NCBI GenBank assembly: GCA_024226255.1
Contig: JAAELU010000395.1
Span: 1-51,500 of the forward strand
Reading direction: 5' to 3'
Length of the DNA stretch: 51,500 nt
Source: a bacterium
Lineage (GTDB): Bacteria; Actinomycetota; Acidimicrobiia; Spongiisociales; UBA5794
Part shown: positions 21,306 to 28,239 of the stretch, in pieces
Layout of the letters: each line of letters opens with the position of its first letter
How positions within the stretch are numbered: the first letter of the stretch is position 1
Position numbers and translations under genes: made by a program
The notes under the pieces: generated by a model
Seen by the model: only the letters and a program-made list of their open reading frames with translations
The model's database searches: none
What the model was told of the DNA's origin: nothing

Positions 21306-21959
21306 ATGGCGCAACTACCGAAGGCGGCTGACCCAGAACCCAACCTCGAGACTGCCAGTGCCCTGGCATTCCCCTTCATGGTTGATGCGCTCGGCATATC
21401 GGCATTGGGTCTGCTCATTCCGACATCGTTTTCGCTGGGGCTCCGTTTTGGGGGTCATCTAGTGCTGTTGGTGGCCTTTGGCTTCTTCCTCGCGCAACGT
21501 CTGTTGGCGAGCACGGATGCACCTTGGTTCAGGGCCTCACCGCTGAGGCGGGACCGTCGCATCATGGCGACCGGCCTAGGAGTCATCATCATTGTCACCG
21601 GCGTTGTTGGTCTGGTGACGTTGGCATCGTCGGCGGCGCTGCGATTCCAGCCGTCAACTCAGTTCCTCCAATTGTTGTCCGCCCTCGACATTGCCTGGGC
21701 GATGACGGCAGTCATGATCGCCGCCTATTGGTTATGGGGGCGCCGCGCCGCGCTGTTGGGAGGGTTGATCGTTGGGGTGGTGTGCATAATCTCGATCGCT
21801 CGCTACCTCGACGCCGTCGGGTTCACTCGGCGCGGCAAATGGCGCCTCGACGCCGAGTCGCTGTGGACCTACGTATTGCCGTTCGACATGGCTGTCGCTG
21901 TCATTGCCATCGGATTGTTTGTATACGCCGCAAGGAAGCGCGCTCGAGTCAGCGGTTAG
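21306..21959 (+). CDS. Hypothetical multi-pass membrane protein
   Basis: 217 aa, several hydrophobic segments; ATG 21306. Confidence 0.6.
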   Translation: MAQLPKAADPEPNLETASALAFPFMVDALGISALGLLIPTSFSLGLRFGGHLVLLVAFGFFLAQRLLASTDAPWFRASPLRRDRRIMATGLGVIIIVTGVVGLVTLASSAALRFQPSTQFLQLLSALDIAWAMTAVMIAAYWLWGRRAALLGGLIVGVVCIISIARYLDAVGFTRRGKWRLDAESLWTYVLPFDMAVAVIAIGLFVYAARKRARVSG

Positions 21960-22738
21960 CCGATCGAGCAGGCGAGTGACCAGTCGTAGGGCCGGAATTC
22001 GATCCTGGGTCCGGAGGTCAACCGCCACGCCTCGATGTCCGGCGCCAGCCAGCGTCCGAGCGCATCGGCAATTGCTGCCTTTCGCGTCGGGAGCATCGTC
22101 GGCATCCGCCGGGGTCGAGTGAAGTCGGCGCCGTACCAGAGGAAGATGCGCGATAGGAGTAGTCGATTCCTCGCCTCGTCACGCACTGCGCCTCCACTGA
22201 CGAGGAAGTGCCGCATCTGATCGTCCAGCTGCTGCTCGAGATCTTCCGCAACAAACGGCTCGAACCGCAACGTTGGACACGAAGCCGATCCACATACCAG
22301 ACCGGCATGAATCCGTGGATCGCTGAAGCGCCGGATCTTGCCGTGTTCAATATCTGTGAGCGATAGCTCTTCCCCGCCGACCGACGCCCAACGCCGGCTG
22401 AAACCGCCGGCCACCCGCAAGACTGTGGGTTCTCCGGTCGCGACGGTTTCAGCTGCGAGATCGAGGGCACCGGCGTTGTAGAGATTTATCCAGAAGGCGA
22501 GGGCTCCTGCTTCGTTCAGCGAGTTGGGGTCCTCAGCCTCCAGGAGGTCCCGGTAGCCAGCGATCGTCTGCCGTTCAGCAACTAGCGCGGCGACACCACC
22601 TTCCTTGAGTGTTGCCAGGACATTGGCAAGCACCGAGTGGTCGACAGTTGCGGATCCCTTCGGCCGCGGCCGTGACACCCTTCTCGCCTTGAGCACGAGC
22701 AGGCCAACCGAGATGGGATTGGGGCTAGGGGATGACAT
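21956..22738 (-). CDS. DUF547-domain protein
   Basis: AFWINLYNAGALDLA, LSLTDIEHGKIRRF, DPRIHAGLVCGSASCPTLR typical of DUF547. Start set at MSSPSPNP (22738). Confidence 0.75.
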   Translation of the reverse strand: MSSPSPNPISVGLLVLKARRVSRPRPKGSATVDHSVLANVLATLKEGGVAALVAERQTIAGYRDLLEAEDPNSLNEAGALAFWINLYNAGALDLAAETVATGEPTVLRVAGGFSRRWASVGGEELSLTDIEHGKIRRFSDPRIHAGLVCGSASCPTLRFEPFVAEDLEQQLDDQMRHFLVSGGAVRDEARNRLLLSRIFLWYGADFTRPRRMPTMLPTRKAAIADALGRWLAPDIEAWRLTSGPRIEFRPYDWSLACSIG

Positions 22739-22820
22739 GAAGCGGATTCGTTCCTTGGCGGGTCTCGGCTGAAACAGAAGTTGTCTCCAATCTGTTCCCG
22801 CGGCGTCCGGAACTGGGGCG

Positions 22821-23297
22821 CTACTGAGTGCTGCGGAAGAAGATGCCGGCAAGGAACCGCCCGACACGACGCATGGTGGCCTGGCGTGGCGCCTCGTTCT
22901 GGTCATCGATCACGAGGCTCAGAAACGTTGCCCTGAGCCTCCACGCCAGGAGCCCGTCCGTCAGCAACTGATCGCCGACGACCACGATCCGGTGGTGGCG
23001 GCCCCGCAACCCGAGGCGGCGGCGCGTTGTCCACGGCTTGTTACCCCGGCTGATCATTCTCTCGACGCCGCGCGGTGGCCCGTTGGTCAGGGCGATGACG
23101 CGCGACACCAGCGGGAGGCCCTCGAATCGGTCGATCGCCTCATTGACAAGGATGACAAACTCGTCGGGGGCAACTCCTTGTGGCGCCAGAGTGTTGTCGA
23201 CGTCAAATACCGCGACGACGTCAGAACCCATCGATTCGATGAATGTTTCGACGTCGTCGAGTGCTCGAACGTGACGGATACGGACTCGATGGAACAC
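22821..23297 (-). CDS. HAD-superfamily phosphatase (YqeG-like)
   Basis: VVAVFDVDNTLAPQG (HAD motif I), ALTNG, VVVGDQLLTDGLLA. Confidence 0.75.
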   Translation of the reverse strand: MFHRVRIRHVRALDDVETFIESMGSDVVAVFDVDNTLAPQGVAPDEFVILVNEAIDRFEGLPLVSRVIALTNGPPRGVERMISRGNKPWTTRRRLGLRGRHHRIVVVGDQLLTDGLLAWRLRATFLSLVIDDQNEAPRQATMRRVGRFLAGIFFRSTQ

Positions 23298-23355: not shown

Positions 23356-23603
23356 TGATCAGCAACGCCAGGCCACCTGGCCGCGCAGCGGCTAGCTCAT
23401 GGTAGCGGCGCGGGCCTCTCCGACGTCCTCGGCCAAGCGCGGCCAAACGACTCCTGAAAGCTACTCTCGTCCGATCCTAGGTGGTCCAGTAGAGCCGTCC
23501 GGCCCTGGCACACGTTGGGGTGGCCTGTTCCTCCCTGTCAAGATCTGCGCCGACCCCGGTGGCCCTCCGGCTGGTAGCGTCGCGGGCAGAAGACAGGAAT
23601 GTG

Positions 23604-25343
23604 ATGGAGACGCCACCGATCGCCGATACGCCCAGTCCCGAACCGATAGAACGCGGGCTACCAGCCATCGGAGTTCGACGCGAGGTGCGGATCGCGGGGA
23701 TTCGGGTCGCAGGGAGGCGTCGCCGCCCAAGTGGGGAGAGGGCCCCGTTGGAGCGCGAATTGCGCGCCGCAGGCAAGTTGTGGCTGCTCGCCGGCGTAGT
23801 CATGATCGGGCTCTGGATAACGCTGTTTGCGTTCCCGGCGTCAACCGACTGGTGGACACGGAACGACACTCGCCTGCTGCAGCGACTTGTCGATCTACGC
23901 AACGACACTCTGACCTCGGTCTCGGACGTCATCGCCGTACTAGGCACATCGTGGTTCAATCGAGTGCTGCGCATCGGTACGCTGCTGGCGCTGATATTCA
24001 TTCGCCGCTGGCGCCACTTCTTCGCGGTAGTTCTGGCCCTCTTGCTGGTTCAAGGCACTGTCGACATTGTCAAACACGTGGTCGGTCGACCTCGTCCCTT
24101 CGTCCCCCTGATCGGGGACTGGAGCGGACCCTCACATCCGTCAGCGCCTGTTGCCGCCCTCGGCGTCACACTTGGTGCCATGGCTTACTCACTCGTCCCG
24201 ACAGGACGTCGCCGCAGGATCGCTCTGGCTGTATCGGGCGTCTTGGTCCTCCTTCTGGTGCTCGCCCAGCTCTATCGCGGTGTTGACCACCCGAGCGATG
24301 CAGTCGTGTCGGCGATCTTCTCCATCTCCGTCGTGGTTGTTCTCTTTCGTTGGTTTGCCCCTGAGTCCGCGTTCCCCGTCCACTGGAGTCGCGGCGTTAC
24401 TGCCCATCTCGATGTGACGGGTGCGCGAGGTAAGGCAATCTCCGAAGCGGTTGGTGCCCAGCTCGGCTTGCGCGTCATCGATATCAAACCTTTTGGGCTC
24501 GAGGGATCAGGTGGCTCGACTCCGCTGCGCCTCAAAGTGGAATCGGACCCGGACAAATACGTGTTTGCCAAGCTATACAGCCAGACTCATCTTCGTTCCG
24601 ATCGCTGGTACAAAGTCGGGCGCACGATCCTCTACGGCTCTCTGGAGGACGAGGTGCGCTTTGCCACGGTTAGGCGCCTCGTCGAATACGAGGACTACAT
24701 CCAACGCCTCATGCGCGACGCCGGTGTCCCCTGTGCTCAGCCGTTCGGCATCGTCGAGATCGCTCCCGAGCGCGAGTACCTGATGGTCAGTGAGTTCTTG
24801 GAAGGATCTGAGGAACTCACCGACGCCGACATTGATGACGCAATAATCGACAAGGCATTGGAAGTGATCCGCAACATGTGGGATGCCGGGCTGGCTCACC
24901 GCGACGTCAAGCCGGCCAATGTCATGTTGAACGAAGGGCGGGTCGTTCTCATCGACGTTGCCTTTGGGACGGTGCGGCCGACTCCGTGGCGTCAGGCGGT
25001 TGACCTGGCGAACATGATGGTGATCCTGGCTCTGCGAACCAGCGCCGAGCGTGTGTATCAGCGAGCCCTACTGCAGTTCGCCCCAGAGGACATCGCCGAG
25101 GCATTCGCCGCCACCCGAAGTGTCACGTTGCCCTCACAATCGCGAAGCTCGCTGGCGCTTGTGAAGAAGGAACAGGGCGTCGACCTCGTTGAGGAGTTCA
25201 AGCAGTTGGCCCCTCCGGCAGAGCAGATTTCGATTCAACGTTGGAGTTCACGGCGGTTGCGGCTGACCTTCGGAGCGGTCCTTCTCGCGCTCTTCGTTAT
25301 CGCCCAGACTGTATCGGAGTTCACCGGAGGAGGGATATTGTGA
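23604..25343 (+). CDS. PAP2-family phosphatase fused to a protein-kinase-like/RIO-Kdo-like domain
   Basis: PAP2 motif KHVVGRPRP...SHPSAP...YRGVDHPSDAV, then kinase motifs AHRDVKPANVMLNEGRVVLIDVAFG; C-terminal TM segment. GTG 23601 is an alternative start. Confidence 0.75.
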   Translation: METPPIADTPSPEPIERGLPAIGVRREVRIAGIRVAGRRRRPSGERAPLERELRAAGKLWLLAGVVMIGLWITLFAFPASTDWWTRNDTRLLQRLVDLRNDTLTSVSDVIAVLGTSWFNRVLRIGTLLALIFIRRWRHFFAVVLALLLVQGTVDIVKHVVGRPRPFVPLIGDWSGPSHPSAPVAALGVTLGAMAYSLVPTGRRRRIALAVSGVLVLLLVLAQLYRGVDHPSDAVVSAIFSISVVVVLFRWFAPESAFPVHWSRGVTAHLDVTGARGKAISEAVGAQLGLRVIDIKPFGLEGSGGSTPLRLKVESDPDKYVFAKLYSQTHLRSDRWYKVGRTILYGSLEDEVRFATVRRLVEYEDYIQRLMRDAGVPCAQPFGIVEIAPEREYLMVSEFLEGSEELTDADIDDAIIDKALEVIRNMWDAGLAHRDVKPANVMLNEGRVVLIDVAFGTVRPTPWRQAVDLANMMVILALRTSAERVYQRALLQFAPEDIAEAFAATRSVTLPSQSRSSLALVKKEQGVDLVEEFKQLAPPAEQISIQRWSSRRLRLTFGAVLLALFVIAQTVSEFTGGGIL

Positions 25344-26215: not shown

Positions 26216-26728
26216 CTACAGACGACCCACAATGTCGGCGACGGGCGGATAGTCGCCGATACCCGTGCCGCGGTGTAGATAGGCGATAGAGCCGTCGCGG
26301 TCAACTATCGCGACTGCGGGGACGTTCGAGAAGTGTCCAGTGATCCGGTATTGCCTGCGGTTTCGCAATAGTGCTCGCAAGTAACGCCACCAGGCCCTCG
26401 AGTCGGTAATCCATTCGAACAGGCCGGGGCGCCGCAATTCGAAGAAGTCTCGGAGCTTCTGTTGCTCGTCGAGGAACAGGGGATACGGGAGTCTCTGCTG
26501 GAGCGACACTGCTTGCCCGTGAGCTGCCGGGGCAACCGCCACGACTGTGGCACCTTTGGCGGCGATTGTGCTGTGAGCTGTCGCAACCTGCGCCAGATAA
26601 TCAAGGCAGCCTGCTCACCCAAAGTATCGGACCAGGACGAACACCGTCTTGTCGCTCAGCACTTCGCCGAGGCGGACCGTTTGACCGTCTGGGCTGTGCA
26701 AGACGAGGTCGACGAGCGCCTCGGTCAT
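26216..26728 (-). CDS. SelL/PRXL2-like thioredoxin-fold redox protein, candidate selenoprotein with in-frame UGA at codon 38
   Basis: Translation through TGA (26617-26615): MTEALVDLVLHSPDGQTVRLGEVLSDKTVFVLVRYFG-U-AGCLDYLAQVATAHSTIAAKGATVVAVAPAAHGQAVSLQQRLPYPLFLDEQQ... Homology-like sequence continues across the UGA; U sits in UxxC. ATG overlaps nhaA stop (ATGA). Confidence 0.75.
26578..26596 (-). promoter_or_regulatory. bSECIS-like hairpin downstream of the in-frame UGA
   Basis: Minus-strand RNA CUG-G-CGCA-GGU-UGCG-A-CAG: 3 bp, G-A mismatch, 4 bp, GGU apical loop starting 27 nt after the UGA. Confidence 0.55.
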
Positions 26729-28239
26729 GAAACGGGGGGAGCCTCAGCGGTTTCGGCTCCCTCGATGCCCAACAGCTGGCGCCCTTCTTCGATCTTCTCT
26801 TCAGGAGTCTTGGCAGATCGCAGGATCGAATAGCCGATAACGCCGGCGAGGCCGGATCCGATGAAGATGCCGATCTTGGCCTGGCTGACAAGAATCTCGC
26901 TCTCGAACGCCAGCTCGGTGATGAACAGTGAAACCGTGAAGCCGATACCGGCGATCGCGGCGAGTCCGAATATGTCGCGCCACCCGGTTCGTTTCGGCAA
27001 CTTGCCGATTCCCGTTCGCACAGCGATCCACGTGAACAAGGAGATTCCCGCCAACTTGCCGACCACCAATCCGACGCCAACCCCGAGTGACACTGCACTC
27101 GAAGCGACGGCGACAAAATCGACATCCACTACCCGTACCCCGGCATTGGCCAAAGCAAAGATGGGAACAACTGCGAACGCCGACCAAGGATGCAGCGATC
27201 GTTCCAGCCGATCGAGTGGCGACACAGACTCCCGGGCTATGGCCGCCAAAGTGAGAGCGCTCGAGTCAACCCGCTCCCTGCTGCGAGGTGTGGCCGATTC
27301 GAGATCGTACCGACTCAGGATCCAGCGAGAGCGCTGGAAGTACTCCGCATCGCTGTACCAGGCGCCGACCGGCGTCAGCAGTCCGAGAGCCACACCGGCG
27401 AGCGTGGCATGGACGCCCGACTCGAAGACAAGGAACCACACGCCGATGCCGAGCACCCAGTAGAACCCGAGCGCTCGAATGCCCACACGTTGGGCCACGT
27501 AGACGAGGCCGAGCCCCCCGATAGCTGCTGCTAGATAGCCCAGTGAAAGGTCGGTGGTGTAGAAGATGGCTATTACCGCGATTGCGCCGATGTCGTCGGC
27601 GATAGCCAGCGCCAAGAGGAAGAGCTTCGCTCCGGCGGAAACCCGGCTGCCGAGTAAGGAGATCACACCAATGGAGAATGCGATGTCTGTCGCCATGGGG
27701 ATTCCCCAACCCCGAGTGGCTTCTCCGCCAGTTCCGGCTACAAAGGCGACAAAGATCAGTGCGGGGACAATCATGCCGCCGAGCGCAGCGATGGCAGGCA
27801 ACGCGGCGTGTTTGCGGTCCTTGAGATCGCCGACCACCAACTCCCGTTTGATCTCGAGGCCGACGACAAAGAAGAAGATGGCCATGAGGCCGTCGTTGAC
27901 GACATGTTTGAGGCTCTCGCTGAAATGAAGCCCGCCGATGCTCAACTCAAAGTGGGTATGCCAGAACCGGTCGTAGCTGTCGCCGAAGGGGCCGTTAGCC
28001 CATATCAACGCAACGACTGCGGCGACCAGCAGAACAATTCCGGATGAAGCTGCGATCTCGGTGAATCGAACAAACGGCCGCACAAAGCGGACCGGCACGC
28101 TGCGGTCGGAGTTGACCCAGGTCTGGTGGATTCTGTCGTCCGAGGGGCCTTTAGACATTGAATCAACAACACTAGTTGCCCGAGCGATGCTTCCGGTATC
28201 GGGCATGGTGGATTTGGACTCGTCGTAACGGGTTACCAT
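26725..28239 (-). CDS. nhaA: Na+/H+ antiporter NhaA
   Basis: NDGLMAIFFFVVGLEIKRELVVGDL, GWGIPMATDIAFSIGV, LALAIADDIGAI. Confidence 0.95.
   Translation of the reverse strand: MVTRYDESKSTMPDTGSIARATSVVDSMSKGPSDDRIHQTWVNSDRSVPVRFVRPFVRFTEIAASSGIVLLVAAVVALIWANGPFGDSYDRFWHTHFELSIGGLHFSESLKHVVNDGLMAIFFFVVGLEIKRELVVGDLKDRKHAALPAIAALGGMIVPALIFVAFVAGTGGEATRGWGIPMATDIAFSIGVISLLGSRVSAGAKLFLLALAIADDIGAIAVIAIFYTTDLSLGYLAAAIGGLGLVYVAQRVGIRALGFYWVLGIGVWFLVFESGVHATLAGVALGLLTPVGAWYSDAEYFQRSRWILSRYDLESATPRSRERVDSSALTLAAIARESVSPLDRLERSLHPWSAFAVVPIFALANAGVRVVDVDFVAVASSAVSLGVGVGLVVGKLAGISLFTWIAVRTGIGKLPKRTGWRDIFGLAAIAGIGFTVSLFITELAFESEILVSQAKIGIFIGSGLAGVIGYSILRSAKTPEEKIEEGRQLLGIEGAETAEAPPVS

Follow-up and report, generated by a model that had tools for sequence, protein, structure and literature searches.

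A probable selenocysteine-containing PRXL2/AhpC-like oxidoreductase gene overlapping nhaA in an Acidimicrobiia genome

Introduction

SelL is said to have been described by Shchedrina et al. in 2007 as a diselenide selenoprotein defined by the motif UxxU. The gene analysed here likewise encodes a thioredoxin-fold, AhpC-like protein with selenocysteine (Sec) at the first redox position, whereas its motif is U-A-G-C rather than the UxxU with diselenide of SelL. Selenoproteins of PF00578 with UxxC or UxxU and of PF13911 with UxxS are already listed in prokaryotic selenoproteome reviews (PMC9312934, PMC13188914), and the gene therefore adds to a known kind of selenoprotein and does not represent a new system. 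Among the proteins listed, the Prx-like thiol:disulfide oxidoreductases (PMC9312934, PMC13188914; representative WP_010940744.1) share with it the Pfam domain family and UxxC. The table rows covered from the same two reviews include no NF040769 entry, and a literature search combining selenocysteine with Acidimicrobiia returned nothing relevant.

The gene lies in a window of 51,500 nucleotides, corresponding to contig C395 of a 5.0 Mb metagenome-assembled genome (MAG) with 778 contigs (90.7% complete, 4.9% contaminated). The product of the locus is very probably a Sec-containing PRXL2/AhpC-like thiol-selenol oxidoreductase, and its transcript is probably shared with nhaA, a reading of its decoding, transcription and catalysis that draws on sequence comparison and a predicted structure. 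Features are listed in Table 1.

Table 1. Positions of the selenoprotein gene, its key codons, the candidate hairpin and the upstream gene in the window
Feature	Position	Strand	Basis
Selenoprotein gene, SelL-related / PRXL2-like redox protein (170 aa including Sec38, TAG stop)	26216..26728	-	Translation; PF00578, PF13911 and NF040769 matches; orthologues; AlphaFold model
In-frame TGA, codon 38, first residue of UxxC, almost certainly read as selenocysteine	26615..26617	-	TGA in close orthologues; Cys in five deeper relatives; sel machinery
TGC codon, putative resolving Cys41 of UxxC	26606..26608	-	Invariant in 10-sequence alignment
Candidate bacterial SECIS hairpin CUGGCGC-AGGUU-GCGACAG	26578..26596	-	Pairing in orthologues; codon constraint; synonymous randomisation
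nhaA, Na+/H+ antiporter	26725..28239	-	PF06965, 477 bits; TIGR00773, 396 bits

Reading frame and in-frame UGA

Translation of the minus strand from 26728 to 26216 gave MTEALVDLVLHSPDGQTVRLGEVLSDKTVFVLVRYFG-U-AGCLDYLAQV...VGRL, with a single in-frame TGA in the motif RYFG-U-AGC (UxxC). The frame runs from an ATG at 26728, past the TGA, to a TAG at 26218-26216, and this is the sole ATG start near the 5' end because the frame opens just five codons before it. The table-11 ORF list holds only 26216-26542, starting from an internal GTG at 26542. Profile searches revealed that the PF00578 alignment was continuous across the TGA (residues 5-150, 40.8 bits, cut-off 26), and the NF040769 'SelL-related redox protein' profile also spanned it (residues 6-168, E 7.6e-27), while PF13911 (AhpC-TSA_2) covered residues 51-154 only and narrowly exceeded its gathering cut-off (28.4 vs 27 bits). 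A PHROGs search gave no match. The original prediction of a minus frame interrupted only by the UGA, of a single AhpC-TSA_2/PRXL2-type fold on both of its flanks, and of an ORF track giving only the post-UGA part was thus borne out by the translation, by the continuous PF00578 and NF040769 alignments, and by the ORF list, respectively.

Conservation of the UGA codon

A scan of the genome contigs with the single protein found no relatives, and an alignment-based scan recovered them. Among 60 relatives, eight loci with 40-48% identity each contained a single TGA, always at the same codon, and the alignment-based scan of genome contigs added a further locus (L096, 49% identity) that also had TGA at codon 38. 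These nine close orthologues (L020-L027 and L096; 40-49% identity, with L027 being a near-copy of L026) came from Acidimicrobiia/Actinomycetota MAGs that belong to different genera and represent two or more families of the order, and their frames were intact downstream of the TGA. In the 10-sequence alignment, the invariant columns included R34, Y35, G37, Sec/Cys38 and Cys41. Moreover, five deeper relatives (L028, L051, L097, L100, and L101) had Cys at position 38, so that a UGA conserved in orthologues and a Cys in homologues occupy the same column, the pattern of a bacterial selenoprotein. This agrees with the earlier placement of the UGA on the first redox Cys of a CxxC motif. The genomes of four Cys forms (L028, L100, L101, and L051 of G220) carried selA, and no selA over the cut-off was detected in that of the fifth (L097, Hoyosella sp. 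YIM 151337; 19 bits only). The Sec letter was masked for a maximum-likelihood tree of 54 proteins. A single clade (support 99) in it unites nine Sec rows (95) with five Cys rows (84), and at least three Sec/Cys changes are needed to explain the tree as a whole.

Selenocysteine machinery and further selenoprotein genes

The genes for Sec synthesis and insertion, for which a genome-wide check had been proposed, were all found in the same assembly, on contigs other than that of the window: a tRNA-Sec over the cut-off (73.1 bits), which ARAGORN called tRNA-SeC with anticodon TCA; selA (430 bits); selB, starting directly after selA (314 bits); and selD (L017, G000:C446:428-1354; 386 bits), which has a UGA of its own at the catalytic site (HGSGUACK). 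The window itself contains no tRNA, and Rfam at gathering thresholds gave no match within it. The selA gene exceeded the cut-off in 53 of the 60 relatives, indicating that the Sec trait belongs to the lineage and speaking against contamination as its explanation.

In addition, a second SelL-related selenoprotein gene was present in one copy in the window's genome (L089, G000:C6:28029-28397; RHFGULTCRERAGQVR), with UGA at the equivalent site and a SECIS-like hairpin of its own. With the PRXL2-like gene, this paralogue and selD, the genome holds at least three selenoprotein genes. Many relatives have a copy of the paralogous family (RHFGUxTCRERAGQVRDRY), with TGA in most of the relatives that have it. 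The two Sec paralogues are close together in G006 and G015 (L079 and L083), a few kb apart at most, an arrangement that suggests local duplication or joint function.

Hairpin and codon constraint downstream of the UGA

The bSECIS model comprises a loop of 3-9 nt with G in its first two positions, lying 16-37 nt after the UGA, and an upper stem of 4-16 bp with a minimum free energy (MFE) of at most -7.5 kcal/mol (PMC13188914). The loop of the candidate hairpin begins 25 nt past the UGA, with G at loop position 2 and one mismatch in the stem; its loop size, G position and spacing fit the model. The consensus in the orthologues was CUGGCGC-AGNUN-GCGnCnG, with 96% of hairpin cells paired across the nine orthologues. 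The energy of seven of nine sequences was within the published limit (-9.4 to -13.9 kcal/mol), and that of the window's hairpin alone (-6.2 kcal/mol) fell short of it, as did that of L024. Furthermore, the SECIS-like hairpin was not the MFE fold of the window's 45 nt (-8.1 vs -13.5 kcal/mol), and a single-sequence test revealed that the 50-70 nt after the UGA in the window folded no better than shuffles, so that comparison between orthologues told more than folding of the window alone. Over nine sequences including the window, the mean hairpin energy was -4.9 vs +1.7 (sd 0.94) kcal/mol after synonymous randomisation, with 0 of 300 randomisations matching it, a comparison in which the hairpin was selected after inspection of homologue folds and the rows are related, so the hairpin is partly common by descent.

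Codon constraint was used as a test because too few pairs varied for covariation to prove the hairpin. Between orthologue pairs, in a 13-codon stretch starting seven codons after the UGA, codons for the same amino acid were identical at a frequency of 0.81, vs 0.44 expected from codon usage, giving an excess of 0.37 after the UGA vs 0.06 gene-wide. The paralogous Sec family showed an excess of 0.35 vs 0.05 gene-wide, with the same peak in a different sequence, and its constrained stretch can fold into the hairpin GCGGGCC-GGUCA-GGUCCGC. The hairpin evidence is supportive of Sec decoding, though not decisive.

Predicted fold and family relationships

An AlphaFold2 model, computed from 23 aligned sequences with Cys put for Sec, had a mean pLDDT of 89.6 and a pTM of 0.86. 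It contains a strand at residues 27-32 followed by a helix at 39-50, with residue 38 at the helix start, which is the usual position of CxxC motifs in thioredoxin folds. The predicted structure is thus of PRXL2 type, a Prx-like thioredoxin fold with U38 and C41 where the first active-site helix begins. The best PDB match was the C44S/C47S form of human prostamide/PGF synthase (PRXL2B; 9usa, E 3.4e-10, TM 0.77/0.80); Bcp/PrxQ peroxiredoxins and ResA-type proteins came next. A sequence alignment with 9us9 placed residues 38 and 41 onto Cys44 and Cys47, the sequence match alone being weak (E 0.16). The protein therefore resembles PRXL2B in its top fold match, in the aligned active-site pair and in a PF13911 score over the cut-off, and differs from it in having Sec for the first Cys and in sharing 17-18% identity in structural alignments; in addition, PF00578 outscores PF13911 for this protein (40.8 vs 28.4 bits).

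NF040769 was the sole NCBIfam family matched, over almost the full length (6-168 of 170), whereas the score of 94.1 bits did not reach the curated cut-off of 120. The ten relatives that were scanned all fell short of 120 too, so automatic annotation with this model would overlook them, and the paralogous Sec family of the same genomes matches the same model. Accordingly, of the SelL/PRXL2-like label given to the protein originally, the PRXL2-like part and membership of the broad SelL-related group hold, and SelL proper does not, given UxxC and the sub-threshold NF040769 score. The gene appears to belong to an unnamed, under-annotated subfamily of Acidimicrobiia.

This adds a well-supported selenoprotein, overlooked by standard ORF reading, together with its Acidimicrobiia subfamily. 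As the NF040769 cut-off misses the protein, the number of selenoproteins counted in these actinobacteria is probably too low. For Acidimicrobiia, selA is nearly universal in the sampled relatives (53/60), with two paralogous Sec redox families coexisting in the same genomes. Moreover, the natural Sec and Cys forms within one clade provide test material for why Sec is retained.

Decoding of the UGA

Several other readings of the UGA were considered. Had a Cys gene suffered a nonsense mutation or been misread in sequencing, a single sequence would look identical, since TGA is one base from TGC, and the MAG is fragmented; however, nine other loci, spread over different genera and two or more families, have TGA at the same codon and intact frames, which leaves a pseudogene or error extremely improbable. 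The retention of TGA in independent orthologues also speaks against a misread TGC or TGT at 26615-26617, which had been named as a point to check. Very hard to sustain, too, is the view that translation truly ends at the UGA, with the 108-aa ORF from the GTG at 26542 as the functional product. That ORF is what a table-11 gene caller yields, but the 62 residues it lacks hold the first strands, RYFGU and Cys41, which are conserved in orthologues and Cys homologues, and the short form would be without the active site. Reassignment of UGA to an ordinary amino acid (a Trp or Gly code) would equally keep the frame open; it is scarcely credible given that nhaA and several orthologues terminate in TGA, that homologues have Cys and never Trp or Gly at codon 38, and that the genome has the full Sec machinery. 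Error, truncated product and reassignment were rejected on the conserved TGA, the loss of the active site and the terminal TGAs, respectively.

The UGA is almost certainly read as Sec, based on the codon itself and its conservation, the sel genes, Cys in homologues, the codon and hairpin constraint and the predicted fold; the original proposal of Sec decoding is supported, and none of the refuting observations named with it was found. In the proposed mechanism, ribosomes would arrive at UGA38, probably coupled from nhaA via the ATGA overlap, and the downstream hairpin would recruit SelB with Sec-tRNA-Sec, leading to Sec insertion at UGA38. Sec38 would then be the selenolate that attacks and Cys41 the thiol that resolves, in a selenenylsulfide cycle with thioredoxin or a comparable reductant as donor, and the substrate may be a peroxide or a disulfide.

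Genomic neighborhood

The nhaA stop and the selenoprotein ATG overlap as ATGA (26728-26725), and, judging from this overlap and the gene order, the two genes are probably co-transcribed. The nhaA gene was also directly upstream of the orthologue in G008 and G025 (one other genus), and at L085 the orthologue's ATG lies 25 nt past the nhaA stop. An Atg22-like MFS transporter gene was upstream of the orthologue in G006, G023, G030, and G015, and a mechanosensitive-channel (MscS-type) gene was downstream in G030 and G015; L080 and L083 combine both neighbors around the orthologous selenoprotein gene. In G049 the neighbors were OsmC- and GYD-domain genes, and neither nhaA nor an Atg22-like gene was seen by the orthologue at L081 and L096.

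The ATGA overlap and the nhaA genes of G008 and G025 would fit a redox partner or regulator specific to NhaA instead of a general antioxidant or disulfide-exchange enzyme. Such a role is unlikely, as the neighbors vary among orthologues, with the Atg22-like MFS gene upstream at four other loci and neither gene at L081 and L096; in addition, no NhaA domain fusion was seen, and the Cys homologues have unrelated neighbors. A literature search for a link between NhaA and selenoproteins returned nothing relevant. Equally doubtful is a broader variant, in which a distinct Acidimicrobiia Sec subfamily (RYFGUAxCL) would act on the membrane transporters of its apparent operons (NhaA, Atg22-like MFS), either as their redox switch or as a partner in their repair.

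Elsewhere in the window, a 607-aa protein in which a PAP2 phosphatase domain is joined to a kinase/APH-like domain is encoded at 23520-25343 (+), and a DUF547 protein at 21956-22906 (-).
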